From assembly GCA_033239005.1 (NCBI GenBank), contig BSQZ01000037.1:2577001-2641000 (forward strand): a DNA stretch of 64,000 nucleotides, in the 5' to 3' direction. The notes under the pieces are model-generated. The model saw nothing but the letters and a program-made list of their open reading frames with translations, was not told the DNA's origin and ran no database searches. Source of the stretch: Lamellibrachia satsuma (taxonomy: Eukaryota; Annelida; Polychaeta; Sabellida; Siboglinidae). Positions 185 through 63,540 of the stretch are shown piece after piece. Position numbers and translations under genes: made by a program. How positions within the stretch are numbered: position 1 is the stretch's first letter; every line of letters starts with the position of its first letter.

Positions 185-28091
<27,907 letters not shown>

Positions 28092-29073: not shown

Positions 29074-31642
29074 TCTTGGAACCCCAGCAATAAAAAAGTT
29101 TCAGAAATGGTTCAAATTTTGAACATATGTTACTTGATTAGCTATAATATGGAAAGTAATTTTTATTTATTTTTCTCTCGTGATTGGTCAGTTATGGAGT
29201 GTCCCCATACGGGGACATCGGGTCTCGGCCATTAAAAACACAAGTATAACAGTCAACTGAAAAGTGCTTTAATAACACACTAAAATGCCTTGCTGCAGCC
29301 CATTTGACGTTGTTTACATAAACAAGACTCCGTGCCTCGATGTAGCTTGCTTCAGTCTAGTTCACTTTGAGTGAAAGTCACGGAAGCAGTTTCTTGCAGA
29401 TGTCAGGCAGAGAAAAACATTGCATTTGTCGCATTTGATTCGAGTCTTGCCCTTGCAATTCTCGAGTCTGCATCGAGCAGAATTCTTTAAGTCGTACGCG
29501 ACTGCCAGGTGCTTAGCTGCCTGAACGCGGGATGCAAGATCGGGCAGAGCTGATACACGTCGTCGTTGCCCTGTTCAGCCTCTGATGAAGTGTCACTGTC
29601 ACACGATGATTCTGGTTCAGCATTCATGAGGGCAAGAGCAACTGTGCTTCGAAAATCGTAAAGCTGCATCGTTGACTGTGAATCGATGCGATGCTCGATC
29701 CAGCAGTTGCTCAGTACCATGTCGATGAAATGTGAAATGACACGGAGATTCCACCTTTAGTGCGAGCTTCCATGCGGTGGTATGATATCATACGATCACA
29801 CAGATCAACTCCACCCATGTTCTTATTATACTGGGTGATGACGTTCGGACGACGGACCTGAACATGTGCCCTGTCCTTCTTGGACCATCGACGACAGTCG
29901 TCTTCGGGCTCTACGCCATAGATTGATGACGCCATCAGGATCGATTTATTGTCAAACCATTTGACCAAGGATACAGCTGAGTTACCGCTGACATACTGCT
30001 CGTATGTTCCCCGTCCTTTCTTTGACATTGCCACGTCAGCTGTGAAAGGCACGGGCAGCTTTCGTTTTGTGATTGTTCCTGTCATATATATCTGTTTCTC
30101 TAAAAGGTGACAAATTAGCGGTAGTGTGGTAAAAAATCTGTCACAGAACAGGTGATGTCCGTTGGTCAGCGTCTCTGTGAGACGCAGCACTGCACCTGTT
30201 CCCTGGCCTGCCTTCTTACCGTCCAGCTCATACTGATCAAATGTTCCTGCCCCTGGTATAGCTCAAAGTCCAACACCAAGCCAGAAGCCCCAGCCAGAAC
30301 AAAGTTCTTCAGCCCAGTTGGACTCGGCTTCCGCGGCACATACTGGCGAGAAGGACAGCGGCCAGTAAACGAGATCATTTGTTCATCAATTGAAACGTTG
30401 GTTTCTCGAGGCAGTCCAACACACACTCGCTGTATGCGGTCTACAAATGGGCGCACCTTCCACAACCGGTCAGCAGCCATCTGTTCGTTGGTAACATCCA
30501 AATTGTCGACAACCGTAAAGTGATTTCGCAGTTTTGAGTAGCGATCTCGAGGCATGCAGTTGGCGATTACTGGTATGCGGGTTGCTCGCTGCCAGTATGA
30601 TCTAATACGTTTCATGCTGAGGCATCCCATCATGATGGACATGCCGATGAACTGTTTCATCTCTGTCGACGATGTCTGAATGTTCCTTCCTGTGGCCTGC
30701 ATGTAGTGACGACCAGTCATGTCCGACATCTCCGCATATGTGGCATCATTCAGGTACATACCGAAATAATCAGCTGGTGACCACGCCTGACGATCTCCTG
30801 AGTAGTCGTGTCGCAGAGGTGCGGGAACAACTGCTGGGTCAAACGTTGCCGTCTTCCTCCAGATGGTTCTTCTGCTTGAGGTGTTGGCACCACAGCTTCC
30901 TCGTCAGATGGAGCATAATCGCTGTATAGGACAGTATCATCATCGCTGCTGTCAAGGTTGCTATCATAGCCGTCACGTTCCATCTCAGCAAGGTTGGTTT
31001 CATCGTCAGACAAATCTATATCTGAATTGTCCATCAGCTCGAGAATGTCTTCCGCAGTCAAACGGTGATGACATGATCTTTCTGAAATAGAAGAAGGATA
31101 CATAATAAGTATACTTATTACAAGTAGTGACAGATACTCACTAACAATCATACATATAGCCTAGGGGTAGTACAATGTTTATTATACCTAAGTGTTACGA
31201 AAATGCTCTTATTATCGCTCACCCTTTGCTGCACCACATTTGAGTGATTCAGACCCAGTGTCCACGTAGAGGGACATATACATTACAAGGTCGTTCATTC
31301 AGTTAATTTAAGCAATCAGCTAATTCTGGTTACATTAATTTGAACACAAGCATGATATGGTAAATGTAGTAGATCAACAATTTAATTAAATAAATATAAA
31401 TTAGATTGTTGAGGCAACATACCTTGTCGGGGTACACGTGCTCTGCTTGAACTGGAGTCGGCCATTTTGGAGTAGGTCATATAAATAGATATCATTTTCC
31501 AATTGCATAAGCAGTCACCAGGAGGCAGCACGTGTGTGTCCCTTCACAGGGACAACAGGTTTTAAAACTTAGAAGTAAATATTTACAAAGATAACAATTT
31601 TAAACTGCAAGTCCCCGTACGGGGACATGTGGAGCCAGGAGG
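29072..31642 (-). mobile_element. piggyBac-family DNA transposon, inactive
   Basis: Ends are a short imperfect inverted repeat, TATATCCTC[T/C]TGG, set in TA-rich flanks. Because of the (TA)n the TSD cannot be read; the canonical TTAA is not present at either end. Subterminal hairpins flank the gene: GTCCCCATACGGGGAC at 29201-29216 and the perfect palindrome GTCCCCGTACGGGGAC at 31611-31626, with a third related one near 31,537-31,554. It is inserted into a LINE RT fragment, whose two halves lie at 28,712-28,886 and 31,643-31,731. Confidence 0.85.
29362..31465 (-). pseudogene. piggyBac transposase, frameshifted
   Basis: DDE transposase for cut-and-paste. A small first exon (31423-31465, MADSSSSRARVPRQ) splices by GTATGT/TTTCAG to 31081, where an acidic N-terminus follows (DNSDIDLSDDE). 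All three catalytic Asp motifs are visible: VSIDEQMISFTGR (about 30,400), FCDRFFTT (about 30,140) and NMGGVDLCDRM (about 29,805). The C-terminal cysteine-rich zinc domain reads RCRLENCKGKTRIKCDKCNV and ends at the stop at 29362. Frame is lost near 30,780, 30,240, 29,745 and about 29,520, so it cannot make a full protein. The spliced N-terminus suggests that the source copy was expressed as a spliced gene. Confidence 0.9.
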
Positions 31643-31731: not shown

Positions 31732-32122
31732 TGTAATGTTCGACCCCCGTCTCGTTGGGCGCGTGCGCGAGGGTCGTTTTTTACAAAGTTCGCTGTTAGC
31801 TCGCCATGTGTACGGTGTGTATGGCTGTACAACATCTCGCCAAACTTTCCCGGCCCGCTTATGGGTCAGGAAAGGGTGAGATCTTGAGGAACCGGTTGAC
31901 AACTCATCAATAAACTTCTAGGCACGGGGAAGAGCGTAAAATTTCGACCCACGCCTGTAGCTTGGTTCGGACAAAATACGCATTACTCACAATTGAACTT
32001 CTGACCCCAACACTATGCTACATGTTTACATAAACATCCTGAATTTTCTGAATAACAAAATGATTATATCTATATTAACCGCGTAACGAAGGCAATGACT
32101 TTACAATGCTACGACACTCCTT
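31732..32122 (-). repeat. Left LTR, outer portion (3' LTR of minus-strand element)
   Basis: About 95% similar by eye to 49147-49221 plus 49699-50016. It lacks the 477-bp segment 49222-49698 found in the right LTR. It continues after E2 at 46287-46318. Confidence 0.85.
32117..32122. repeat. 6-bp target-site duplication of E2, left
   Basis: CTCCTT. The uninterrupted LTR at about 50,008-50,013 has this word once, in the same context (ACGACA before, GTCAAAA after). Confidence 0.95.
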
Positions 32123-33172
32123 AGTAGTTAGCAGAGGTTTTTGGGACCTCCTTATCAGGTCGATCTAAGATCAAAGGAAGATCAAAGGAAAGACCCCTAA
32201 TATCGCGCAGAGTGCGCGCAGCCAATGAGAGAGCAGTAGAGCGCCCCCTGGCGATCGTAGCGGAGCGGAGTGCATGATGGGTAAGGTAAACGCCCCCTAG
32301 GGACTGGAGGAGGAACGAATATTGACCAGTAGTCATCGATGGTGGACATAGGAAAAAAGAAAATACACGTAATACACCCACCCACCACCCACCCACCCAC
32401 CCACCCACGTAGACACGTGACCGTGTGACCTGAACCTTGACCCGACGGAGTGACCAGTCCGAGTGGTTAGCTAATGTCGACTGGACATCCGAACGACTGG
32501 AGTTAAGTGTAAGCCGAGGCGTTTATCCAGCTGTGAGCCGTAGCGCGAGATCAAAGGACGCTAATCGGTACAATGTAGCAAGGGAGCCGAGCTAATCGGC
32601 GATAAACAGCAACTATGTGGCAGAGACGTCATTGATGTGTGTTATAGCGGGTTATATGGAGTGAACAAAAGACGTAATAAAAGTAAAACCGATAAACATA
32701 AGGGGAATATGTAATAGTTATTAATTAGCCGACATGCATGGCTATAAAATAACCGCTGGACGACGGAAATCGGACCGTTGGTTAAATAAAATGTAGCAGG
32801 ACGAAAATGGACTATGTGTAAAATATAATATGACATTAAATAAAATGTAGCAGGACGAAAATGGACTATGTGTAAATATAATATGCCAACAAAACGCAAT
32901 ACAAGACGGGAATATAAGGTGATGCAAACTTTAATACATGAAAAAGCACAATGACGGTATTGGTTATAACGTTATTAAAATGATCGTTTGTAGAAGTGTT
33001 CATGTATTCATTCGGGATGACAGATGGTGTTGAAGGCCGGCAAGAGCGATTGCCGAACGGAACGAGCAGTCATCCGACGAGCCAACGCAATTCGTAGCGA
33101 CACCGATCGACGCCGACGGAAGAGGGAAGGATAATGTATGGGGCCTCTGTGAAGGCGACGGAGACACAATAT
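32123..33172. repeat. E2 left arm: outer unique domain
   Basis: Mirror at 45230-46280. Contains (ACCC)n at 32,376-32,406, a direct duplication at about 32,780-32,880 (ATGTAGCAGGACGAAAATGG), and an open minus frame with no recognised domain (33000-33239, 79 codons; twin 45152-45391). Confidence 0.9.
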
Positions 33173-34997
33173 CGTCCACAAACGTTAGACAGAGGACTCT
33201 AAAGTCTCTTGCCATACGCATATTTGCGTTATATGTCAATATTGTTAAATAGTGCTCTTACACTTTACCCATAACTCCTACAGTTTACCCATAATTCCTA
33301 CAATTTACCCATAATTCTCCTATTGAATAAGAGTACAAGGACATTTTATTAAATATGTGAAAATAATGACACAATATCGTCCACAAACGTTAGACAGAGG
33401 ACTCTAAAGTCTCTTGCCATACGCATATATTCGTTATATGTCAATATTGTTAAATAGTGCTCTTACACGTTACCCATAACTCCTACAGTTTACCCATAAT
33501 TCCTACAATTTACCCATAATTCCTACAATTTACCCATAATTCCTACAATTTACCCATAAGTCTCCTATTGAATAAGAGTACAAGGACATTTTATTAAATA
33601 TGTGAAAATAATGACACAATATCGGCCACAAACGTTAGACAGAGGACTCTAAAGTCTCTTGCCATACGCATATTTTCGTTATATGTCAATATTGTTAAAT
33701 AGTGCACTCTTACACTTTACCCATAACTCCTACAGTTTACCCATAATTCCTACAATTTACCCATAAGTCTCCTATTGAATAAGAGTACAAGGACATTTTA
33801 TTAAATATGGGAAAATAATGACACAATATCGGCCACAAACGTTAGACAGAGGACTCTAAAGTCTCTTGCCATACGCATATTTTCGTTATATGTCAATATT
33901 GTTAAATAGTGCACTCTTACACTTTACCCATAACTCCTACAGTTTACCCATAATTCCTACAATTTACCCATAATTCTCCTATTGAATAAGAGTACAAGGA
34001 CAGTTTATTAAATATGTGAAAATAATGACACAATATCGTCCACAAACGTTAGACAGAGGACTCTTAAAGTCTCTTGCCATACGCATATTTGCGTTATATG
34101 TCAATAGTTGTTACTTTACCCATAACTGCGCTCTTACACTTTACCCATAATTCCTACTCCTACATAATTCCTTACCCATAAGTCTCCAATTGAATAAGAG
34201 TACAAGGACATTTTATTAAATATTTGACACAATATCGGCCACAAACGTTAGACAGAGGACTCTAAAGTCTCTGCCAATTTACGCATATTTTCGTTATATG
34301 TCAAATTGTTTGCACTTACATTTACCCATAACTCCTAAGTTTACCCATCAATTTACCCATAATCCCATGGAATAAGAGTACAAGAACATTTTATTAAATA
34401 TGTGAAAATAATGACACAATATCGTCCACAAACGTTAGACAGAGGACTCTAAAGTCTCTTGCCATACGCATATTTTCGTTATATGTCAATATTGTTAAAT
34501 AGTGCACTCTTACACTTTACCCATAACTCCTACAGTTTACCCATAATTCCTACAATTTACCCATAAGTCTCCTATTGAATAAGAGTACAAGGACATTTTA
34601 TTAAATATGTGAAAATAATGACACAATATCGGCCACAAACGTTAGACAGAGGACTCTAAAGTCTCTTGCCATACGCATATTTTCGTTATATGTCAATATT
34701 GTTAAATAGTGCACTCTTACACTTTACCCATAACTCCTACAGTTTACCCATAATTCCTACAATTTACCCATAATTCTCCTATTGAATAAGAGTACAAGGA
34801 CATTTTATTAAATATGTGAAAATAATGACACAATATCGTCCACAAACGTTAGACAGAGGACTCTAAAGTCTCTTGCCATACGCATATTATCGTTATATGT
34901 CAATATTGTTAAATAGTGCGCTCTTACACTTTACCCATAACTCCTACAGTGTACCCATAATTCCTACAATTTACCCATAATTCCTACAATTTACCCA
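33173..34997. repeat. E2 left arm: 207-bp tandem array, 9 units
   Basis: Units start at about 33173, 33369, 33614, 33821, 34028, 34227, 34414, 34621 and 34828 with ACACAATATCG[T/G]CCACAAA. Length varies with the number of TTTACCCATAATTCCTACAA subrepeats. Units around 34,100-34,380 are unusually scrambled. The right arm has only 7 units. Confidence 0.95.
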
Positions 34998-35065
34998 ACA
35001 CACATATGTAGTGAAGTGTGTTTGTTCGTTCACCTAGCTATAAAAAGAACGGGACTTTAGTTTCA

Positions 35066-38000
35066 ATAGTCACTGTACCCACAGTACAGAGCTGGAATAC
35101 TTAGTTGATGTACCCACAATACACAGCTACAGTACATAGTCACTGTACCAACATAACACATCTAGAATGCATAGTCACTGTATCCTGAGTAAACAGCTAA
35201 AGTTCATAGTCAATGTACCCACAGAACACAGCTAGAATGCCTAGTCACAGTACCCACAGTACACAGCTAGAATACATAATAACTGTACCCACAGTACACA
35301 GCTAGAATACATATTCATTGTACAAACAGCACACGGTTAGAATACATAGTCACTGTACCCACTGTACACATCTAGAATACATAATCACAGTAACCACAGT
35401 ACACGGCTAGAAAACATAATCAATGTAACCACATTACACGGCTGGAACACATAATCACAGTAAATGCATAGTCACTGTACCCACAGTACACAACTAAAAT
35501 ACATAGTCACTTAACCCACAGCACACAGCTAGAATGTATAATCACTGGACACACAGTACACAACTAGAATACATAGTCAATGTATGCACAGTGCACAGCT
35601 ACAGTACATAGACCTGTACCCACAGTACATGGCTACAATACATAGTCACTGTACCCACATTACTCAGCTAGCGTACATAGTCACTGTACCCGCAGTGCAC
35701 ATCTAGAATATAAAGTCACTGTACCCACAGTACAAATATATAATACATAGTTACTGTACCCACAGTACACAGCTACAGTTCATAGTCATTCTACCCACAG
35801 TACACACCTAGAATACATAGGCACTGTACCCATAGTATACAGCTACAATTTATATTCACTGTACCCACAGTACACAACTAAAAGACATAGTCACTTAACC
35901 CACAGTACACAGCTAGAATGTATAATCGCTGTACACGCAGTACACAGCTAGAATACATTGTCAATGTATGCACAGTGCACAGCTACAGTACATAGTCCTG
36001 TACCCACAGTACATGGCTACAATACATAGTCACTGTACCCACAGTACACAGCTACAATACATAGTCACTGTACCCACAGTACACATCTAGAATACATAGT
36101 GAATGTATCCAGAGTACACAGCTAATGCACATAGTCACTGTACCCACAGTACACAACTACAATACATAGTCACTGTACATACATTACACAGCTAGAATAC
36201 ATAGTCACTGTAACCAGAGTATATAGCTATAATACTTAGTCACTGTACACACAGAACACAGCTATAGAACATATTCACTGTACCCACAGTACACAGCTAG
36301 AATACATGATCACTGTACCCAGAGTACACAGCTAGAATACATAGTCACTGTACCCACAATATACAGCTACAACTCATAGTCACTGTACCCACAGTACACA
36401 AATAAAATACATAGTAACTCAACCCACAGTACAAAGCTAGAATATATAATAACCGTACCCACAGTAAACATCTAGAATACATAGCCACTGTACCCACCGT
36501 ACACATGTAGAATACAAAGTCACTGTACCCACAGTACACAACTACAATTCATAGTAACTGTACCCACATTACTCAGCTAGCTTACATAGTCACTGTACCC
36601 ACAGTGCACAGCTAGAATATAAAGTCACTGTACCACAGTACACAGCTAGAATACATAGTGACAGTAACCACAGTACACAGCTACAGTATATAGTCACTGT
36701 ACCCACAGTACACAGCTAGAATACATAATCACTGTATCCAGAGTACACAGCTAAAATACATAGTCACTGTACCCAGAGTACACAACTAGAATACATAGTC
36801 AGTGTACCCACAGTACACAGCTAGATTACATAGTCACTTTACCCACAGTACACAGCTACAGTACATAGTCACTGTACACACAGTACACAGCTAGAATACA
36901 TAGTCACTGTATCCAGAGTACACTGCTAAATTACATAGTTACTGTACCCACAGTACACATCTAAAATACATATTTACTGTACCCAGAGTACACAACTAGA
37001 ATACATAATCACTGTTCCCACAGAACACAGCTAGAATTCATTGTCACTATACCCACAGTACACGGCTAGAATACATAGTCACTTTACCCACAGTGTACAG
37101 CTAGAAAACAAAGTAACTGTACCCACAATATACAGCTAGAATATATAGTTGTTGTACCCAGAGTACTCAGCTACAGTACATAGTAACTATACCCACAGTA
37201 CACAGCTAGCAAACATAGTCACTATATCCAGAGTACACAGCTAAAGTACATTGTTACTGTACCCACAGTACACAGCTACAGAACATTGTTGCTGAACCCA
37301 TAGTACACAGCTAGAATGCATAGTTACTGTACCACAGTACACCGCTACAGTACATAGACACTTTCCCCACAGTACACAGCTAGAACACATAGTCACTGTA
37401 TCCAGAGTACACAGCTAAAGTACATTGTTACTGTACCCACAGTACACAGCTACATAACATTGTTGCTGAACCCATAGTACACAGCTAGAATGCATAGTTA
37501 CTGTACCACAGTACACCGATACAGTACATAGACACTTTACCCACAGTACACAGCTAGAACACATAGTCACTGTATCCAGAGTACACAGCTAAAGTACATT
37601 GTTACTGTACCCACAGTACACAGCTACAGAACATTGTTGCTGAACCCATAGTACACAGCTAGAATGCATAGTTACTGTACCACAGTACACCGCTACAGTA
37701 CATAGACACTTTACCCACAGTACACAGCTAGAACACATAGTCACTGTATCCAGAGTACACAGCTAAAGTACATTGGTACTGTACCCACAGTACACAGCTA
37801 CAGAACATTGTTGCTGAACCCATAGTACACAGCTAGAATGCATAGTTATTGTACCACAGTACACCGCTACAGTACATAGACACTTTCCCCACAGTACACA
37901 GCTAGAACACATAGTCACTGTATCCAGAGTGCACAGCTGTAATACATAGTTACTATACCCACTGTACACAGGACACAGCTAAAATTCATATTCACTGTAT

Positions 38001-38805
38001 CCATAGTACACAGCTAGATTGCATATTCACTGTACCCACAGTACACAGCTAGAATATGTAGTCACTATACCCACAGTACACAACTAGAATACATAGTCAC
38101 GGTACCCACAGTACACATTTAGAATAAATAATCACAGCAACCATAGTACACGGCTAGAAGACATAATCAATGTAACCACAGTACAGGGCTAGAATACATT
38201 GTCACTGGACCCAGAGTAAACAGCTACAGTATATAGTCACTGTACCCACAGTGCATAGCTAGAATACATAGTTACTGTACCCACAGTACACGTTTAAAGT
38301 CACTGTATCCCCAGTACACATCTAGACTACATAGTCACTGTATCCAGAGTACACAGCTAAATTACATAGTCACTGTACCCACATTACACAGCTATAATAC
38401 TTAGTCACTGTACACAAAGTACACAGCTATAATAAATATTCACTGTACCCAAAGTACACAGCTAGAATATATATATATATATATAGTCACCGTACACACA
38501 GTACACAGCTAGCATACATAGACATTGTACCCACAGTACACAGCTAGAATATATATAGTCACTATACCCAGAGTACACAACTAGAATACATATTCACTGT
38601 ACCCACAGTAAACAACTAGAATACATAATAATAATTATCACTGTACCCACATTAACCCACTACAATTCATGGTCACTGTACCCACAGTACTCAGCTAGCA
38701 TACATAGTCACTGTACCCACAGTGCACACCTAATATACAATGTTACTGTACCCACAGTACACAGTTAGAATACATAGTAACTGTTCCCACAGTACACAAA
38801 TAAAA
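35066..38805. repeat. E2 left arm: 35-bp tandem array
   Basis: About 105 copies of the E1-type monomer (CACTGTACCCACAGTACACA + GCTAGAATACATAGT). The part up to about 38733 belongs to the inverted arm; the rest lies in the centre. Confidence 0.96.
37217..37940. repeat. 174-bp higher-order repeat within the E2 left array
   Basis: Five-monomer blocks repeat at 37,219, 37,394, 37,568, 37,742 and 37,916 (period 174-175), each starting CACT[G/A]TATCCAGAGTACACAG and each with the same monomer variants (CACCGCTACAG, GTTGCTGAACCC). Confidence 0.93.
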
Positions 38806-39247
38806 TACAGCTATAATGCATTGTCACTACATCTCCAGTACACGATTAGAATACACAGTTACTGCTCACCCAGGACACAGCTCGAATACATGGTCGCTGC
38901 TGTATCTCCACCACACAGCTGTAAGATATAGTCACTACAACTCCAGTACACAAATAGAATACACAGTTACTGCTAGAATACATGACCAGTGCACCCTCAG
39001 TACACATCTAGAATATATAGTCAGTAAGTTGCTACGAACTCAATAATGGCGGTTGTGATGACGACACGACGATCTCAGCCGTCTTATATACCATGCTAGA
39101 AATAAGCCAGACAACTGACGTCAGCCTCGGAACAATACCACAGTAATCAGAAAACTGATAAACGCGGCAGGCAACTGTCAACTAACGACGCCGGGCATCC
39201 ATCACGGAAGGAAAAAGTGGGGTTACGCGTACGCAGACAGCGGTAGA

Positions 39248-39506
39248 ACATGCTGTATTACAGGCTGTCGTGCTGTATTACAGGCTGCCATGCTGTATAA
39301 CAGACTGCCATGCTGTATTACAGGCTGCCTTGCTGTATTGCAGGCTGTCTTGCTGTATAACAGGCTGCCATGCTGTATTACATGCTGCCATGCTGTATTA
39401 CAGGCTGCCATGCTGTATTACAGACTGCCGTGCTGTATTACAGGCTGTCGTGCTGTATTACAGGCTGTCTTGCTGTATTGCAGGCTGTCTTGCTGTATTA
39501 CAGGTG
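39248..39506. repeat. 20-bp tandem array, 13 units, in the E2 centre
   Basis: Units of ATGCTGTATTACAGGCTGCC with few changes. Each contains the near-perfect palindrome CTGTA-T-TACAG. Confidence 0.95.
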
Positions 39507-39667
39507 ATGGACGCAATGTGTAAAGAGCCAGGATGTGGCTGGAAGTAGGAGAAACAGAGGATAGTATGGTGGAGGCAATGTGTAAGGAGGAAGGGTGTGG
39601 CTTGAGGTAGGAAAGACAGAGGACAGTATGGTGGACGCAATGTGTCAGGAGTCAGGATCAACATTAC
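39491..39667. repeat. 177-bp direct duplication, copy A
   Basis: Copy B is 39805-39980, nearly identical; both run from TGCTGTATTACAGG to GGATCAACATTAC. The module GAGCCAGGATGTGGCTGGA is also present in the E1 arms. Confidence 0.92.
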
Positions 39668-39804
39668 ACAACTTCGCACAACTTCGCACAACTTCGCACA
39701 ACTTCACACAACTTTACCTTCTGATTACCACACCTCACCACCCCCACCATAGAGTAATGAGACGAGCATAGCCATCTGACCACCAGGGGGCGCAGAGGCT
39801 GCCC

Positions 39805-39980
39805 TGCTGTATTACAGGTGATGGACGCAATGTGTAAAGAGCCAGGATGTGGCTGGAGGTAGGAGAAACAGAGGATAGTATGGTGGAGGCAATGTGTAAG
39901 GAGGAAGGGTGTGGCTTGAGGTAGGAAAGACAGAGGACAGTATGGTGGACGCAATGTGTCAGGAGTCAGGATCAACATTA
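39805..39980. repeat. 177-bp direct duplication, copy B
   Basis: Second copy of 39491-39667. Confidence 0.92.
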
Positions 39981-40008
39981 CCCAACTTCACACAACTTCT
40001 GACACATT

Positions 40009-43000
40009 AGGTGTGCACTGTGGGTACAGTGACTATGTATGCTAGCTGAGTACTGTGGGTACAGTGACCATGAATTGTAGTGGGTTAATGTGGGTACAGT
40101 GATAATTATTATTATGTATTCTAGTTGTTTACTGTGGGTACAGTGAATATGTATTCTAGTTGTGTACTCTGGGTATAGTGACTATATATATTCTAGCTGT
40201 GTACTGTGGGTACAATGTCTATGTATGCTAGCTGTGTACTGTGTGTACGGTGACTATATATATATATATATATTCTAGCTGTGTACTTTGGGTACAGTGA
40301 ATATTTATTATAGCTGTGTACTTTGTGTACAGTGACTAAGTATTATAGCTGTGTAATGTGGGTACAGTGACTATGTAATTTAGCTGTGTACTCTGGATAC
40401 AGTGACTATGTAGTCTAGATGTGTACTGGGGATACAGTGACTTTAAACGTGTACTGTGGGTACAGTAACTATGTATTCTAGCTATGCACTGTGGGTACAG
40501 TGACTATATACTGTAGCTGTTTACTCTGGGTCCAGTGACAATGTATTCTAGCCCTGTACTGTGGTTACATTGATTATGTCTTCTAGCCGTGTACTATGGT
40601 TGCTGTGATTATTTATTCTAAATGTGTACTGTGGGTACCGTGACTATGTATTCTAGTTGTGTACTGTGGGTATAGTGACTACATATTCTAGCTGTGTACT
40701 GTGGGTACAGTGAATATGCAATCTAGCTGTGTACTATGGATACAGTGAATATGAATTTTAGCTGTGTCCTGTGTACAGTGGGTATAGTAACTATGTATTA
40801 CAGCTGTGCACTCTGGATACAGTGACTATGTGTTCTAGCTGTGTACTGTGGGGAAAGTGTCTATGTACTGTAGCGGTGTACTGTGGTACAATAACTATGC
40901 ATTCTAGCTGTGTACTATGGGTTCAGCAACAATGTTCTGTAGCTGTGTACTGTGGGTACAGTACCAATGTACTTTAGCTGTGTACTCTGGATACAGTGAC
41001 TATGTGTTCTAGCTGTGTACTGTGGGTAAAGTGTCTATGTACTGTAGCTGTGTACTGTGGTACAGTAACTATGCATTCTAGCTGTGTACTGTGGGTACAG
41101 TAACAATGTACTTTAGCTGTGTACTCTGGATACAGTGACTATGTGTTCTAGCTGTGTACTGTGGGTAAAGTGTCTATGTACTGTATCGGTGTACTGTGGT
41201 ACAGTAACTATGCATTCTAGCTGTGTACTATGGGTTCAGCAACAATGTTCTGTAGCTGTGTACTGTGGGTACAGTAACAATGTACTTTAGCTGTGTACTC
41301 TGGATACAGTGACTATGTGTTCTAGCTGTGTACTGTGGGGAAAGTGTCTATGTACTGTAGCGGTGTACTGTGGTACAGTAACTATGCATTCTAGCTGTGT
41401 ACTATGGGTTCAGCAACAATGTTCTGTAGCTGTGTACTGTGGGTACAGTAACAATGTACTTTAGCTGTGTACTCTGGATACAGTGACTATGTTTGCTAGC
41501 TGTGTACTGTGGGTACAGTTACTATGTACTGTAGCTGAGTACTGTGGGTACAGCAACTATATATTCTAGCTGTGTATTTTGGGTACAGTGACTTTGTATT
41601 CTAGCTGTACACTGTGTGTAGAGTGACTATGTATTCTAGCCGTGTATTCTGGCTGTGTTCTGTGGGTACAGTGACTATGCATTCTACTTGTGTACTCTGG
41701 GTACAGTAAATATATATTCTAGATATCTACTTTGGGTACAGTAACTATGTAATTTAGCTGTGTACTCTGTATACAGTGACTATGTATTCTAGCTGTGTAT
41801 TCTAGATGTGTTCTGTTGGTACAGTGACTGTATACTGTAGCTGAGTATTGTGGGTACAGTGACTATGTATTCTAGCTGTGTACTGTGGGTACAGTGACTA
41901 TGTATTCTAGTTGTGTACTGTGGGTACAGTGACTATGTATTCTAGCTGTGTACTGTGGTTACAGTGATTATGTATTCCAGCTGTGTACTGTGGGTACAGT
42001 GACTATATACTGTAGCTGTGTACTGTTGTTACTGTCACTATGTATTCTAGCCATGTACTGTGGTACAGTGACTTTATATTCTAGCTGTGCACTGTGGGTA
42101 CAGTGATTATGTATGCTAGCTGAGTAATGTGGGTACAGTTACTATGAATTGTAGTTGTGGACTGTGGGTACAGTGACTTTGTATTCTACATGTGTACTGA
42201 AGGTACAGTGGCTATGTATTCTAGCTGTTTACTGTGGGTACAGTGATTATATATTCTAGCTTTGTATTATGGGTTGAGTTACTCTGTATTTTAGTTGTGT
42301 AATGTGGGTACAGTGACTATGAGTTGTACCTGTATATTGTGGGTACAGTGACTATGTATTCTAGCTGTGTACTCTGGGTACAGTGATCATGTATTCTAGC
42401 TGTGTACTGTGGGTACAGTGAATATGTTCTATAGCTGTGTTCTGTGTGTACAGTGACTAAGTATTATAGCTATATACTCTGGTTACAGTGACTATGTATT
42501 CTAGCTGTGTAATGTATGTACAGTGACTATGTATTGTAGTTGTGTACTGTGGGTACAGTGACTATGTGCATTAGCTGTGTACTCTGGATACATTCACTAT
42601 GTATTCTAGATGTGTACTGTGGGTACAGTGACTATGTATTGTAGCTGTGTACTGTGGGTACAGTGACTATGTATTGTAGCCATGTACTGTGGGTACAGGA
42701 CTATGTACTGTAGCTGTGCACTGTGCATACATTGACAATGTATTCTAGCTGTGTACTGCGTGTACAGCGATTATACATTCTAGCTGTGTACTGTGGGTTA
42801 AGTGACTATGTCTTTTAGTTGTGTACTGTGGGTACAGTGAATATAAATTGTAGCTGTATACTATGGGTACAGTGCCTATGTATTCTAGGTGTGTACTGTG
42901 GGTAGAATGACTATGAACTGTAGCTGTGTACTGTGGGTACAGTAACTATGTATTATATATTTGTACTGTGGGTACAGTGACTTTATATTCTAGATGTGCA

Positions 43001-43631
43001 CTGCGGGTACAGTGACTATGTACGCTAGCTGAGTAATGTGGGTACAGTGACTATGTATTGTAGCCATGTACTGTGGGTACAGGTCTATGTACTGTAGCTG
43101 TGCACTGTGCATACATTGACTATGTATTCTAGTTGTGTACTGTGTGTCCAGTGATTATACATTCTAGCTGTGTGCTGTGGGTTAAGTGACTATGTATTTT
43201 AGTTGTGTACTGTGGGTACAGTGACTATGCATTTACTGTGATTATGTGTTCCAGCCGTGTAATGTGGTTACATTGATTATGTTTTCTAGCCGTGTACTGT
43301 GGTTACTGTGATTATGTATTCTAGATGTGTACAGTGGGTACAGTGACTATGTATTCTAACCGTGTGCTGTTTGTACAATGAATATGTATTCTAGCTGTGT
43401 ACTGTGGGTACAGTTATTATGTATTCTAGCTGTGTACTGTGGGTACTGTGACTAGGCATTCTAGCTGTGTTCTGTGGGTACATTGACTATGAACTTTAGC
43501 TGTTTACTCAGGATACAGTGACTATGCATTCTAGATGTGTTATGTTGGTACAGTGACTATGTACTGTAGCTGTGTATTGTGGGTACATCAACTAAGTATT
43601 CCAGCTCTGTACTGTGGGTACAGTGACTATT
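40009..43631. repeat. E2 right arm: 35-bp tandem array
   Basis: Inverted copy of 35,066-38,733. Confidence 0.96.
40797..41500. repeat. Higher-order repeat, mirror copy in the E2 right array
   Basis: ACTCTGGATACAGTGAC recurs at about 40,811, 40,986, 41,123, 41,297 and 41,472. One interval is 137 bp instead of 174-175, so one 35-bp monomer has been lost here relative to the left arm. Confidence 0.9.
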
Positions 43632-43696
43632 GAAACTAAAGTCCCGTTCTTTTTATAGCTAGGTGAACGAACAAACACACTTCACTACATATGTGT

Positions 43697-45229
43697 GTTG
43701 GGTAAATTGTAGGAATTATGGGTAAATTGTAGGAATTATGGGTAATTTGTAGGAATTATGGGTAAATTGTAGGAATTATGGGTACACTGTAGGAGTTATG
43801 GGTAAAGTGTAAGAGCGCACTATTTAACAATATTGACATATAACGATAATATGCGTATGGCAAGAGACTTTAGAGTCCTCTGTCTAACGTTTGTGGACGA
43901 TATTGTGTCATTATTTTCACATATTTAATAAAATGTCCTTGTACTCTTATTCCATAGGAGAATTATGGGTAAATTGTAGGCATTATGGGTAAACTGTAGG
44001 AGTTATGGGTAAAGTGTAAGAGTGCACTATTTAACAATATTGACATATAACGAAAATATGCGTATGGCAAGAGACTTTAGAGTCCTCTGTCTAACGTTTG
44101 TGGCCGATATTGTGTCATTATTTTCACATATTTAATAAAATGTCCTTGTACTCTTATTCAATTGGAGACTTATGGGTAAATTGTAGGAATTATGGGTCAA
44201 TTGTAGGAATTATGGGTAAATTGTAGGAATTATGGGTAAACTGTAGGAGTTATGGGTAAAGTGTAAGAGCGCACTATTTAACAATATTGACGTATAACGC
44301 AAATATGCGTATGGCAAGAGACTTTAAGAGTCCTCTGTCTAACGTTTGTGGACGATATTGTGTCATTATTTTCACATATTTAATAAACTGTCCTTGTACT
44401 CTTATTCAATAGGAGAATTATGGGTAAATTGTAGGAATTATGGGTAAACTGTAGGAGTTATGGGTAAAGTGTAAGAGTGCACTATTTAACAATATTGACA
44501 TATAACGAAAATATGCGTATGGCAAGAGACTTTAGAGTCCTCTGTCTAACGTTTGTGGCCGATATTGTGTCATTATTTTCCCATATTTAATAAAATGTCC
44601 TTGTACTCTTATTCAATAGGAGACTTATGGGTAAATTGTAGGAATTATGGGTAAACTGTAGGAGTTATGGGTAAAGTGTAAGAGTGCACTATTTAACAAT
44701 ATTGACATATAACGAAAATATGCGTATGGCAAGAGACTTTAGAGTCCTCTGTCTAACGTTTGTGGCCGATATTGTGTCATTATTTTCACATATTTAATAA
44801 AATGTCCTTGTACTCTTATTCAATAGGAGACTTATGGGTAAATTGTAGGAATTATGGGTAAATTGTAGGAATTATGGGTAAATTGTAGGAATTATGGGTA
44901 AACTGTAGGAGTTATGGGTAACGTGTAAGAGCACTATTTAACAATATTGACATATAACGAATATATGCGTATGGCAAGAGACTTTAGAGTCCTCTGTCTA
45001 ACGTTTGTGGACGATATTGTGTCATTATTTTCACATATTTAATAAAATGTCCTTGTACTCTTATTCAATAGGAGAATTATGGGTAAATTGTAGGAATTAT
45101 GGGTAAACTGTAGGAGTTATGGGTAAAGTGTAAGAGCACTATTTAACAATATTGACATATAACGCAAATATGCGTATGGCAAGAGACTTTAGAGTCCTCT
45201 GTCTAACGTTTGTGGACGATATTGTGTCT
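43697..45229. repeat. E2 right arm: 207-bp tandem array, 7 units
   Basis: Mirror of 33173-34997 with two fewer units and without the scrambled ones. Confidence 0.94.
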
Positions 45230-46280
45230 CCGTCGCCTTCACAGAGGCCCCATACATTATCCTTCCCTCTTCCGTCGGCGTCGATCGGTGTCGCTACGAA
45301 TTGCGTTGGCTCGTCGGATGACTGCTCGTTCCGTTCGGCAATCGCTCTTGCCGGCCTTCAACACCATCTGTCATCCCGAATGAATACATGAACACTTCTA
45401 CAAACGATCATTTTAATAACGTTATAACCAATACCGTCATTGTGCTTTTTCATGTATTAAAGTTTGCATCACCTTATATTCCCGTCTTGTATTGCGTTTT
45501 GTTGGCATATTATATTTACACATAGTCCATTTTCGTCCTGCTACATTTTATTTAATGTCATATTATATTTTACACATAGTCCATTTTCGTCCTGCTACAT
45601 TTTATTTAACCAACGGTCCGATTTCCGTCGTCCAGCGGTTATTTTATAGCCATGCATGTCGGCTAATTAATAACTATTACATATTCCCCTTATGTTTATC
45701 GGTTTTACTTTTATTACGTCTTTTGTTCACTCCATATAACCCGCTATAACACACATCAATGACGTCTCTGCCACATAGTTGCTGTTTATCGCCGATTAGC
45801 TCGGCTCCCTTGCTACATTGTACCGATTAGCGTCCTTTGATCTCGCGCTACGGCTCACAGCTGGATAAACGCCTCGGCTTACACTTAACTCCAGTCGTTC
45901 GGATGTCCAGTCGACATTAGCTAACCACTCGGACTGGTCACTCCGTCGGGTCAAGGTTCAGGTCACACGGTCACGTGTCTACGTGGGTGGGTGGGTGGGT
46001 GGGTGGGTGGTGGGTGGGTGTATTACGTGTATTTTCTTTTTTCCTATGTCCACCATCGATGACTACTGGTCAATATTCGTTCCTCCTCCAGTCCCTAGGG
46101 GGCGTTTACCTTACCCATCATGCACTCCGCTCCGCTACGATCGCCAGGGGGCGCTCTACTGCTCTACTGCTCTCTCATTGGCTGCGCGCACTCTGCGCGA
46201 TATTAGGGGTCTTTCCTTTGATCTTCCTTTGATCTTAGATCGACCTGATAAGGAGGTCCCAAAAACCTCTGCTAACTACT
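45230..46280. repeat. E2 right arm: outer unique domain
   Basis: Inverted copy of 32123-33172 with small differences, for example CTCTACTGCTCTACTGCTC here against one copy on the left. Confidence 0.9.
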
Positions 46281-46286
46281 CTCCTT
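46281..46286. repeat. 6-bp target-site duplication of E2, right
   Basis: CTCCTT directly after ACTACT; the LTR then resumes with GTCAAAATACGC. Confidence 0.95.
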
Positions 46287-49146: not shown

Positions 49147-50045
49147 TGTAAAGTTCGACCCCCGTCTCGTTGGGCGCGTGCGCGAGGGTCGTTTTTCACA
49201 AAGTTCGCTATTAGCTCGCCAGATTCATTCACGTCTAGAATGAAATCAGTTGTAACACCAGTTGTCCAGGTATCGTCTCGATTAGAGATTTATTCGACAG
49301 CAAGTCACTTCTCGTACATTTCACAATCACATAAAATCGCCATCCCCGTTGCATCAGTACACCGTATAAGTATAATCGGTAACATCTTTAGTTGAAATTT
49401 GAAAAGTTCCGTAATTTTGAAATCAAACGTAACGCTAGTGCAAGCCGGCTTGGCTTGTCTATGCGGAAAATTTTGAAGGTCTGAAAGTTGGGAGCATTTT
49501 CTTCCCTCGTGGAGCGTACACGTCGTGTTTCGGTGAAATAGTCTGCCGCGCTCCCTCGAGTGTGCATATCTCTCCCCTTTAAAGCAAGTCAATAGCTTTC
49601 CCAGAAGTTTCCAGTATCAAAGTACGCATGCGTGAACAGGCCGACGCCACACAACCTCTCTGAAGAAAACCGATTTGTGTTTTCGCATAATTACTACATG
49701 TGTACGGTGTGTGTTGCTGTCCTACATATCGCCAAACTTTCCCGGCCCGCTTACGGGTCAGGAAAGGGTGAGATCTTGAGGAACCGGTTGACAACTCATT
49801 AGTTAACTTCTAGGCACGGTAAGAGCGTCAACTTTCGACCCACGCCTGTAGCTTGGTTCGGACAAAATACGCATTACTCACAATTGAACTTCTGACCCCA
49901 ACGCTAAGCTACATGTCTACATAAACATACTGGATTTTCTGAATAACACAATTATTATATCTAGATTTACCGCGTAACGAAGGCAATGACTTTACAATGC
50001 TACGACACTCCTTGTCAAAACACGCTTCTTTGACACAACTTAACA
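49147..50045 (-). repeat. Right LTR (5' LTR), intact; empty site for E2
   Basis: 899 bp. Aligned to the left LTR except for 49222-49698, which is an insertion here or a deletion there. The E2 target CTCCTT is uninterrupted at about 50,008-50,013. Confidence 0.85.
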
Positions 50046-50765
50046 AAAGTAGAAGTTATATTGTTAGAATTATGATATACTGGTACAAACTATGTTTGCA
50101 CGCTGGTCCAGGATTTTATCGGAGGGATTCCAAGTCTGTAAAGGTATCAGGCAAGGTGGCATACTCTCACCGTACCTGTTTAATGTATATATTGATGACA
50201 TAAGTGCTGCACTCACACAATATCGCACTGGCTGTTGTATTGATGATATGAATATAAACAATCTCATGTATGCAGATGACCTGGTTGTATTTCCTCTTCT
50301 AGCGTAGGTTTGAGGGAGCTGTTATTTGTATGTGAAAGTTATGGTCTAAACCATGAAATTAATTAATTTAATCATAAAAAGTGCAATACTCATTAAGTAA
50401 AGGAAAGCATATGAAAAACGTGTGCCACCTTGCATTTAAGTTAAATGGAGAGGATATTAAAGGAGTGAATAGTGTAAAATACCTGGGTCATATTATATAT
50501 GCAGTGACTCTAAGGAGGACAATTAAGATATAATGCGTCAGTGTCGCCAGTTGTATGTCCGTGACAATGTACTACTTAGGACATTTTAAATGTGCACAAA
50601 TGATGTCAAGGTCAAGCTGTTTAGTACATTTTGTTCATCTATGTATACAGCTCAACTGTGGTGGAATCATACTGTAGCTTCCACAACTAGTTAGATTACA
50701 TGTATGTTTCAATAATGTGTTTAGACGATTACACAGACTACCCAAATACTGCAGACGTATCACTC
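50046..50765 (+). mobile_element. LINE reverse-transcriptase fragment
   Basis: Frames give RIMIYWYK, ARWSRILSEGFQVCKGIRQG, GILSPYLFNVYIDDI and NLMYADDLVVF (YADD active site). Degraded thumb sequence then runs to about 50,760 (LGHII, LYVRDNVLL, FNNVFRRLHRLPKYC). Frameshifted; same family as 28,712 and 54,150. Confidence 0.85.
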
Positions 50766-51029: not shown

Positions 51030-53990
51030 ATTGTTGAAGGCAACATCGGAAACGTGCTAGGATTCAAGGCAGCCGGAGAACTCAAAATCCTAACGTTAAC
51101 TAGACAGATCACAACTGATGCTGATAGCATTCTAGAAGATTACCAGGACATTTTCTTAGGTATCTGGAAATTTAGCAACATAATGGTGTCGCTTCACACG
51201 AATCGGTGACACCAAAGTAGCAGCCACATCGACGCATTCCTTTCCACATTTGTAGAACAGGTATTGGCTCGTCTTGAGGCTGAAGATGTCATTGAGAAGA
51301 CAGAAGGCCCAGCGCCTTGGGTTTCCCCAACTGTGGTTGTTTCTAAGAAGAATTCAGGAGAAGTCCGCATTTGCATAGATATGCGTGAAGTAAACAAGGC
51401 AGTGCAAAGAGAGAAACATATCACGCATATCATTTGCATAGATATGCGTGAAGTAAACAAGGCAGTGCAAAGAGAGAAACATATCACGCATATCATTTGC
51501 ATAGATATGCGTGAAGTAAACAAGGCAGTGCAAAGAGAGAAACATATCACGCATATCATTTGCATAGATATGCGTGAAGTAAACAAGGCAGTGCCAAGAG
51601 AGAAACATATCACGCATATCATTTGCATAGATATGCGTGAAGTAAACAAGGCAGTGCAAAGAGAGAAACATATCACGCATATCATTTGCATAGATATGCG
51701 GGAAGTAAACAAGGCAGTGCAAAGAGAGAAACATAGCACGCATATCATTTGCATAGATATGCGTGAAGTAAACAAGGCAGTGCAAAGAGAGAAACATATC
51801 ACGCATATCATTTGCATAGATATGCGTGAAGTAAACAAGGCAGTGCAAAGAGAGAAACATATCACGCATATCATTTGCATAGATATGCGTGAAGTAAACA
51901 AGGCAGTGCAAAGAGAGAAACATATCATGCCCACGGGGACGACTTGATCACAGACCTGAACGGCGCGACAACGGTCATCACATTGGACTTGAAGGCAGGC
52001 TATCATCAACTTGAACTTGTTCCTGTAGTTCGTCACATCACATCGTTTAGCACACGTGTAGCGCTATACAGATACAAACGACTGGTGTTTGGCATAAATG
52101 CTGCCTCAGAAATCTTCCAAAACGCAGTCGCAGAGCTACTACATGGCCTAAGCGGATGCCGCAACATCTCGGATGATATCATCGTCTACGGCAATACGGT
52201 CGCAGAAGACGATGCAAACTGGAAAGCGGTTTTACGAGAGAACAACGCACGTCTGAACAAAGAGAAATGCAAGCTCTACTAAAACACATTACATTCTATG
52301 GTTACGCTTTCGGTGCACATGGAATCCGAACAGATCCAAAGAACATCGAATCGATCAAGAATGCACTTCGACCAACCAAAGCATCAGAGGTTCGACCACT
52401 TCTTGGCTCAGTATGTTTCGAGGTTCATAGCTAACTTTACTACCATCGTTGCTCCACTACGTGAACTAACCAGGCAAGATGAACCATGGCATTTTGGAGT
52501 AGCTTTAGGAACAATCCTTTCGAGCTCTAACAAATGTTTTGACGAACACCAGCACGATGACATACTTCGACCCAAACACGCTCTCGGAAGTGTTTGCCAA
52601 CCCCCTTGGTCTTGGCGCCATCCCCACACATGGTGGGAAAGTGATAAGCTACGCAAACCGAGCTGTCATTGACGTTGAAAGAAGACTCGCAAACGGAACA
52701 CGAAATGCTCGTAGTTGTCTGGAGTGGAGAGCATTTCCATCTCCATTTGCATGTCGCAATCTCTGTCATTTACACAGATCAGAAGCCTCTGCTTGTCATC
52801 TCCAAGAGCCAACGTCCACTCTTCGCACGAATTGAAAGATGGCGATTGCGTCTCGTGCCCTATCAATTCGAACTGCGACATCGACCTGGAAAAGACGACA
52901 AAAATCCGACAGACTACATTAGTCGTTACCCTTGTTCAACAGAATCAAGTGATCCAATCGAAGACAATGTGAATTATGTATGCTACTCCGCCAGTTCCAA
53001 AGGCAAGTAGATCAGGTCACACAGCACACTAGCACTGATATCGTTCTTCAGGCAGTCACCAGAGCTGTCAAAACTGGTCACTGGAACGATGCACGTTTAA
53101 GCAACTTCAAAAATGTTCAAAACGAACTGACAACCTGCAATGGCATTGGACTAAGAGGAACACGCATCGTTCTGCCAGCAGCATTACAAGCTAAAGCTGT
53201 AGAAATCGCCCACGTAGGCCATCAAGGAATAGTGAAAACGAAGAAACTACCGCGTGAAAAAGTGTGGTTCCCACGGATTGACTACATGGCAGAGAAACAA
53301 GTAAAGAGCTGGCTAGCGTGTCAAGCAACTACTAGCGGTGCAATCAACCCTAAACCAACGATCGCAACACCACTTTCTTCCGCGCCGTGTCTCGCTTGAC
53401 TTCTTAGGCCCAGTTCCTACCGACGATACCTTCTCGTTGTTATGGACGACTACAACATATTTCCAGAATTGGAAATAGCCGCAGTCTACAGCTGCAACAG
53501 CCGTCATTCCAAAGTTGGATAGCATCTTCGCACGACAGGGAATTCTGGAATTGACCAAATCTGACGACGGTCCACCGTTGAATGGTACAGAATTCGATAA
53601 ATGTTCTCATCATCTTGGATTCCTCCATTGATGAAAGCTATCAGAGCGTCACACGTAGAACAACCAGCCGAAGCACTGGACGGAAGAGAACTGCGTGTCA
53701 CACTTCCGGAACACAACAGATTCACACCCACGAATCACAAGACAAACTCAGACATGAAGATATGGAGAATAAAGCAGAAATGAAAGCCTACTGCGACAAA
53801 AGGCGTAATGCAAAGCGATCTCAACTGCAAGTTGGAGATATTGTTCTCGTTCGACAACATCGCAGAAACAAACCATCACCACCGTTCAACCCGAGACCAC
53901 TGGAAGAAATTCAACGTAAAGACAGCATGGTGACAGCGAGGAACGTACACAATAACTCGAAATGTCTCACACTTCAAGCGTTATGATGCA
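51030..53990 (+). pseudogene. Gypsy-type LTR retrotransposon pol, decayed
   Basis: Domains in order on the plus strand, in several frames. Pre-RT region (GFKAAGELKIL, DSILEDYQDIF). RT from about 51,264 (EDVIEKTEGPAPWVSPTVVV; ICIDMREVNKAV; LDLKAGYHQLEL; YKRLVFGINAASEIFQ). The YxDD-box region is altered to NISDDIIVYG. RNase H/tether follows (FARIERWRLRLVPYQFELRH, PTDYISRYP). Integrase comes next: a zinc-finger-like AHVGHQGIVKTK...LACQATT, then core pieces (KSDDGPPLNGTEF), then a C-terminal basic region. At least five frameshifts or stops. No LTRs found. An in-frame 63-bp tandem expansion interrupts the RT. Confidence 0.9.
51369..51935 (+). repeat. In-frame 63-bp tandem repeat (9 units) inside the Gypsy RT
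   Basis: Nine copies of 21 codons, ICIDMREVNKAVQREKHITH plus one residue, nearly identical, with three single changes (Q to P in unit 4; a T-to-G base change at about 51,701; I to S in unit 6). The unit covers RT motif 1 and the residues after it. The array is open in frames on both strands because 63 is divisible by 3. Confidence 0.97.
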
Positions 53991-59492: not shown

Positions 59493-62789
<3,297 letters not shown>

Positions 62790-63540
62790 TTCATGAGAGC
62801 TGCTTGCAAAAAGTGTTGAAGTGCTGCTGGCTTTTGCAAGTTACTAGCGGCACTCTCTCGGGGAGCAAATAGAGGTCTCACACCGGCAAGAACACGTCAA
62901 GACAGGCGCGAGCTATTTATCCCTGCAGTGGCTGGTCGGGAGATGTTGGGAGTTCCATTCATCAACCACCCTTGATGCTGCCACAATGACATGGTTTTCT
63001 GTTAGGGTTTGCTCCCTTAGCCTTCGGTTCTGTCGAGAACCTGTATCACAAGGCAGTGATTTTCAACTCTGCAATGCAGGGGCGTCAAACTCCCTGAGGT
63101 ATTGTAGTACCAGAGGTACTGTAATACTTGCATACATAATAATACTTGCATACATATATATTATATATATATCAAGTCCAGGTCATTTGCCCCCCTCCCG
63201 GACATTTGCCACTTTGTCACTTGCCCCCCCAGACATTAGCCCCTTGCCTTATTCAAAATCTGGACATTTGCCCCCTGTCCGTAGCCTCTGGATTATTTGT
63301 AAGTTTTTTAAGAAATTTTTTTTAACTTATTTTTTATTTCTGAACATGAATTCAAGATATATATATTACCCTAATTGCAATTAATGTTCTTTGTGCCAGA
63401 TCAGCCAAGTAAATTACTTTATATAGTTGGAGGTGATCCTGTAATCAAAGGATTATCTTTATTGCAATTGTGGAAGAAGCCAGCGACATTAGGACCTGGA
63501 CCTGTTAGGACAATTGAGGATATTTGAAAGAAGCCATCTC
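62790..63540. other. Upstream of the LINE: no gene
   Basis: May include the LINE 5' UTR. A CATTTGCCCCCC-type phrase repeats several times at 63,184-63,284, and a short TA run lies at 63,154-63,172. No credible ORF. Confidence 0.4.

Follow-up and report, generated by a model that had tools for sequence, protein, structure and literature searches.

Within a stretch of 64,000 nucleotides of the annelid Lamellibrachia satsuma genome (contig BSQZ01000037.1, positions 2,577,001 to 2,641,000; the window, hereafter), a pair of long inverted arms raises two questions: did this DNA enter the chromosome as a mobile element, and if so, what kind of element is it? The element, named E2, is an insertion with a 6-bp target duplication, and it was inserted later than the duplication of the repeat that harbors it, called here the host repeat. 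Our tentative answer to the second question, to which we assign a probability of roughly 0.45, is that E2 may be a non-autonomous near-palindrome inserted by the integrase of a Maverick (also known as Polinton), its palindrome having been made and renewed by fold-back copying. The features that define the insertion are:

32123..46280, no strand assigned: E2, the whole inserted element, 14,158 bp, starting with AGTAGT and ending with ACTACT
32117..32122, plus strand: left target duplication of E2, CTCCTT
46281..46286, plus strand: right target duplication of E2, CTCCTT
49697..50054, plus strand: uninterrupted (empty) site in the second copy of the host repeat

When the flanks of E2, joined through a single CTCCTT, were aligned with nucleotides 49697-50054, 335 of the 359 columns were identical (93%) and the one gap was located away from the junction. 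The two host-repeat copies match across the junction without a break, and the insertion that the earlier note had proposed on the basis of this empty site is therefore confirmed. The ends, which had been placed to the base together with a 6-bp CTCCTT duplication, also held: the duplication is exactly 6 bp long, the adjacent bases mismatching on either side, and the chance that two random 6-mers from the window agree is 5.4e-4. The interval originally reported, 32117-46286, corresponds to E2 (32123-46280) plus both CTCCTT copies. Since the joined flanks match the uninterrupted copy, the host repeat had already been duplicated when E2 was inserted. This supports one part of the claim that the palindrome moved as one unit; as for the other part, the empty site alone is silent on whether the inserted DNA was palindromic.

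The host repeat had been described as a pair of long terminal repeats (LTRs). Its two copies share a 77-bp block (96%) and the 359-column block (93%), and the right copy is longer by 475 bp between the shared blocks; these additional nucleotides (49222-49696) are lacking in the left copy and have no clear target duplication. The edges of the repeat, whose exact location is uncertain, are GTTGTAA and AAAGTAAAA or AAAGTAGAA rather than TG..CA. Ten open stretches at the host repeat were scanned for domains and none other than RVT_1 was found above the cut-off; RVT_1 is located in 50068-50298, just outside the right copy, and no gag-pol domain was above the cut-off in the scanned open stretches between the copies. 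A sequence resembling a long interspersed nuclear element (LINE), with the same reverse-transcriptase part, precedes the left copy and follows the right copy, and therefore the host-repeat pair cannot be explained as a simple insertion into a single LINE. In view of the edges, the 475-bp difference and the lack of an internal domain, the LTR label was dropped as unproven.

The internal organization of E2 is as follows, E1 being a second, related element of the window that is described below:

32123..38731, plus strand: left arm, about 6.6 kb
33163..34997, plus strand: array of units of about 207 bp built on a 20-bp motif, in the left arm, with its mirror at about 43699-45228
35066..39026, plus strand: tandem array of 35-bp units, left side, the final part of which (38732-39026) is unpaired in the right arm
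38732..40007, no strand assigned: loop of 1,276 bp without arm partner, including short modules related to the inner arms of E1
40008..46280, minus strand: right arm, about 6.3 kb, including a 35-bp array at 40008-43630

From the outside to the inside, the arms consist of roughly 1 kb that is for the most part free of repeats, the array of 207-bp units, and the array of 35-bp units. Between the left and right arms there are 67 mismatches and several indels, the largest of which (164 bp) is found in the 207-bp array. The mismatches are clustered, 54 of them being within nucleotides 36367-37224, while the outer 1,976 bp of the arms include none and differ by two indels (8 and 4 bp). What had been called a 14.2-kb palindrome does have real inverted arms, but these differences and the unpaired loop make it an imperfect one.

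Was the inserted DNA already palindromic? The second element of the window bears on this point:

13143..26817, no strand assigned: E1, related palindromic element, 13,675 bp, AGTAGT...ACTACT
13137-13142 and 26818-26823: target duplication of E1, AACGTT

E1 and E2 are separated by 5.3 kb. The center of E1 (401 bp when folded) base-pairs until a 28-nt loop. The termini of both elements show 70% identity across the first 118 alignment columns plus another 25-bp block, the consensus units of their 35-bp arrays agree at 35 of 35 positions, and several central modules are common to both; with the arrays masked, no further similarity between the outer arms was detected at an E value of 0.01. A terminal 21-base pattern was located four times in the window, once at each end of the two elements, as compared to a mean of 0.00 occurrences in 100 shuffles, and allowing up to 3 mismatches revealed no additional site in the window. 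Because E1 shares with E2 the ends, the inverted 35-bp arrays and the central modules, the DNA that was inserted as E2 was probably already palindromic. The opposite possibility, that a shorter element was inserted and then became a palindrome in place, is compatible with the empty site, which by itself shows an insertion and not its original form. It would require that elements at two different sites arrive at a common inverted layout, which comprises the ends, the 35-bp arrays of each arm, and the central modules, and we give it very little credence.

Two sequence motifs are concentrated in these elements. A CCAAT-box-like block, GCGCGCAGCCAAT, is conserved at 13233, 26715, 32214 and 46177, close to each of the four ends of the two elements, and has no other occurrence in the window. 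The sequence CGCCCCCTGG, which we take to resemble the core of a CTCF site, occurs in the window four times (20010, 32242, 39783 and 46144), always inside E1 or E2.

Inverted arms that are rich in repeats pose problems for assembly, and the mismatch patches of both elements lie mostly within tandem arrays, as they might if arms or patches had been joined from different copies or haplotypes. Such a mosaic is quite unlikely given that E1 and E2 have distinct unique flanks and matched 6-bp duplications and that E2 has an empty site, an argument that does not protect the inner arrays. An artefact of read inversion as the source of the palindromes was ruled out by the unique flanks, the matched duplications and the E2 empty site.

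The next question is which known type of transposon has such ends; the comparison draws on parts of the papers cited. Both elements have the ends AGTAGT//ACTACT and 6-bp duplications, which are of different sequence (AACGTT for E1 and CTCCTT for E2). As described in those parts, (AGT)2//(ACT)2 is the end motif most often found in vertebrate Mavericks, with (AG)3//(CT)3 also occurring, and intact vertebrate Mavericks have 6-bp duplications, sizes of 12.7-24.6 kb, and inverted repeats of 46-1,447 bp (PMC8097293); the duplication of Polintons is also given as 6 bp (PMC10045372). E1 and E2 are alike in the duplication, the (AGT)2//(ACT)2 ends, the inverted nature of the ends, and their sizes, 13.7 and 14.2 kb, which are within the range (PMC8097293, PMC4028283). 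Judged from the letters, this end pattern is that of Mavericks, a similarity that the earlier note had overlooked. Unlike Mavericks, E1 and E2 include tandem arrays in their arms.

Other integrase-related and foldback transposons share some of these characteristics. IS3EU and GingerRoot have integrase-like transposases and 6-bp duplications as in E1 and E2, and differ from them in having TA..TA or TG..CA ends (PMC10045372); Ginger1/2 have TGTNR ends and 4-5 bp duplications (PMC2836005). Foldback elements such as Tetris (PMC4079207) and Galileo (PMC3688188), for which P- or Mutator-type transposases have been proposed, are similar to E1 and E2 in their long inverted ends, tandem arrays, and little or no coding capacity, features that are typical of this class. 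E1 and E2 could be foldback cut-and-paste transposons that belong to a different DDE superfamily, have long inverted ends rich in repeats, and resemble Mavericks at the tips alone. The 8-10 bp duplications of Tetris, its different ends (PMC4079207), and the terminal sequences just listed for the DDE superfamilies with 4-6 bp duplications, none of which is AGTAGT//ACTACT, make this an unlikely explanation. Among the combinations of ends and duplications compared, the Maverick type fits best, though on short features.

The coding capacity of both elements was analyzed as well. Neither includes a stop-to-stop stretch of at least 150 amino acids. Of their 43 open stretches of at least 70 amino acids, 30 were scanned and yielded no Pfam domain at the cut-off, the other 13 being right-arm counterparts of scanned ones. 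The sole matches, to BON with E values of 0.027 and 0.032, were below the cut-off and correspond to mirror copies of one frame. The scanned stretches are also unlike Mavericks in that integrase, polymerase, ATPase and capsid domains were not found in them. As core Maverick genes were not found, E1 and E2 are not classed as autonomous Mavericks, and what we assign to them is just Maverick-type ends. No matches were obtained when the window was scanned with Rfam and for tRNA genes, nor in scans against viral contigs and genome contigs, collections that were not designed for animal DNA.

How did the arms become, and stay, alike? One feature of E1 is needed at this point:

19416..19651, plus strand: 3' end of a LINE in the left arm of E1, with an identical mirror copy at 20305-20540

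The two copies of this LINE fragment with their surroundings are identical at 301 of 301 bases, and the fragment has a relative at 5485-5731 (90%, 247 columns). Segments that are specific to one element are present in both of its arms: the outer arm and the LINE fragment in E1, and the 207-bp array in E2. The E1 arms differ by 62 mismatches and six indels of 1-5 bp. The longest mismatch-free runs, 2,529 bp in E1 and 1,976 bp in E2, were each equalled in none of 10,000 random placements; the mismatches are patchy in both elements and mostly located inside tandem arrays. For each of six patches we determined the best other match of each arm. In three of them (17250-17345, 18030-18290, and 36360-37230) it was the mirror arm for both arms; in patch 15660-15970 this was the case for the right arm alone, and in patches 16605-16685 and 34090-34580 another array unit was a better match than the mirror.

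Ordinary chromosomal gene conversion between the arms, following a Maverick-type insertion and taking the place of fold-back copying, is the main alternative for the renewal of the arms. Mismatches confined to patches that are flanked by long identical runs are what conversion tracts leave, and the mirror is the best other match for both arms in half of the patches. On the other hand, gene conversion preserves an existing palindrome but does not generate it, and E1 pairs up to a 28-nt loop; whole element-specific segments are found in both arms, although an insertion can also be copied by conversion. We consider that gene conversion accounts for the arms with a likelihood that is low, yet high enough to be weighed seriously.

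Insertion by a Maverick integrase combined with fold-back copying, the reading that we prefer, would proceed as follows. An integrase of the Maverick type, supplied by another element, would insert E1 and E2; because no such gene is present in the window, we infer the type of this enzyme. During replication the single strand would fold back on itself to form a long hairpin whose double-stranded end is complete, and extension of the hairpin or mismatch repair would pass a change in either arm on to the other. A palindrome would be a natural substrate for this kind of copying, which may both make and renew the arms. Several observations weigh against it. The loop of E2 is non-palindromic. The arms of E1 and E2, 6-7 kb, are several-fold longer than the inverted repeats of 46-1,447 bp described for intact vertebrate Mavericks (PMC8097293). 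The 30 of 43 open stretches scanned did not yield a gene for an integrase, a polymerase or a capsid protein. The link to Mavericks, as read from the DNA, appears to rest on an end motif and a duplication length, both of which are short features. Patchy homogenization is equally expected from chromosomal gene conversion and, since in three of the six patches the mirror is not the best match for both arms, exchange with other array units is mixed in.

Snapback or copy-back defective viral genomes and the palindromic derivatives of protein-primed linear plasmids are self-complementary and rely on the enzymes of another replicon. E1 and E2 differ from them in being integrated in an animal chromosome and in being known from integrated sequence alone. 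A more specific version of the preferred reading, possible albeit doubtful, is that E1 and E2 represent satellite genomes of Mavericks of the snapback type, i.e. gene-free, hairpin-forming parasites that keep just the replication and integration ends. Their whole length would be renewed by fold-back copying during protein-primed replication, and they would thereby be in competition with the virus-like element on which they depend.

Other features of the window lie outside both elements. A piggyBac-type transposase (DDE_Tnp_1_7) is encoded at 29711-30903 on the minus strand, split across two overlapping frames; Watersipora subatra and Priapulus caudatus are the only species named for its relatives among the matches listed (61-67% identity over part of the query). 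A 63-bp unit repeated 8.9 times (98%) at 51368-51927 is located in the open frame 51210-51947 on the plus strand, where it results in the in-frame repetition of a 21-amino-acid segment. This frame, presumably a gypsy-type reverse transcriptase, matched in Pfam SidC_C alone, below the cut-off. An open LINE frame of 1,057 amino acids (59667-62840) includes endonuclease and reverse-transcriptase domains and is 99% identical to part of a L. satsuma protein over 56% of its length.

The presence of E1 and E2 at a distance of 5.3 kb is a caution that a 14-kb palindrome in an animal assembly may represent a genuine insertion. Mavericks are considered to be potential viruses in integrated form, although particles are reported not to have been observed (PMC8097293). 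If our reading is correct, palindromes that lack genes and carry Maverick ends would represent satellite or defective genomes of Mavericks. To our knowledge no such kind has been described, and among the matches listed in the open-licence literature no title or abstract opening names a gene-free Maverick-ended palindrome. Elements of this kind would reveal which sequences suffice for movement and would leave a fossil record of fold-back copying.

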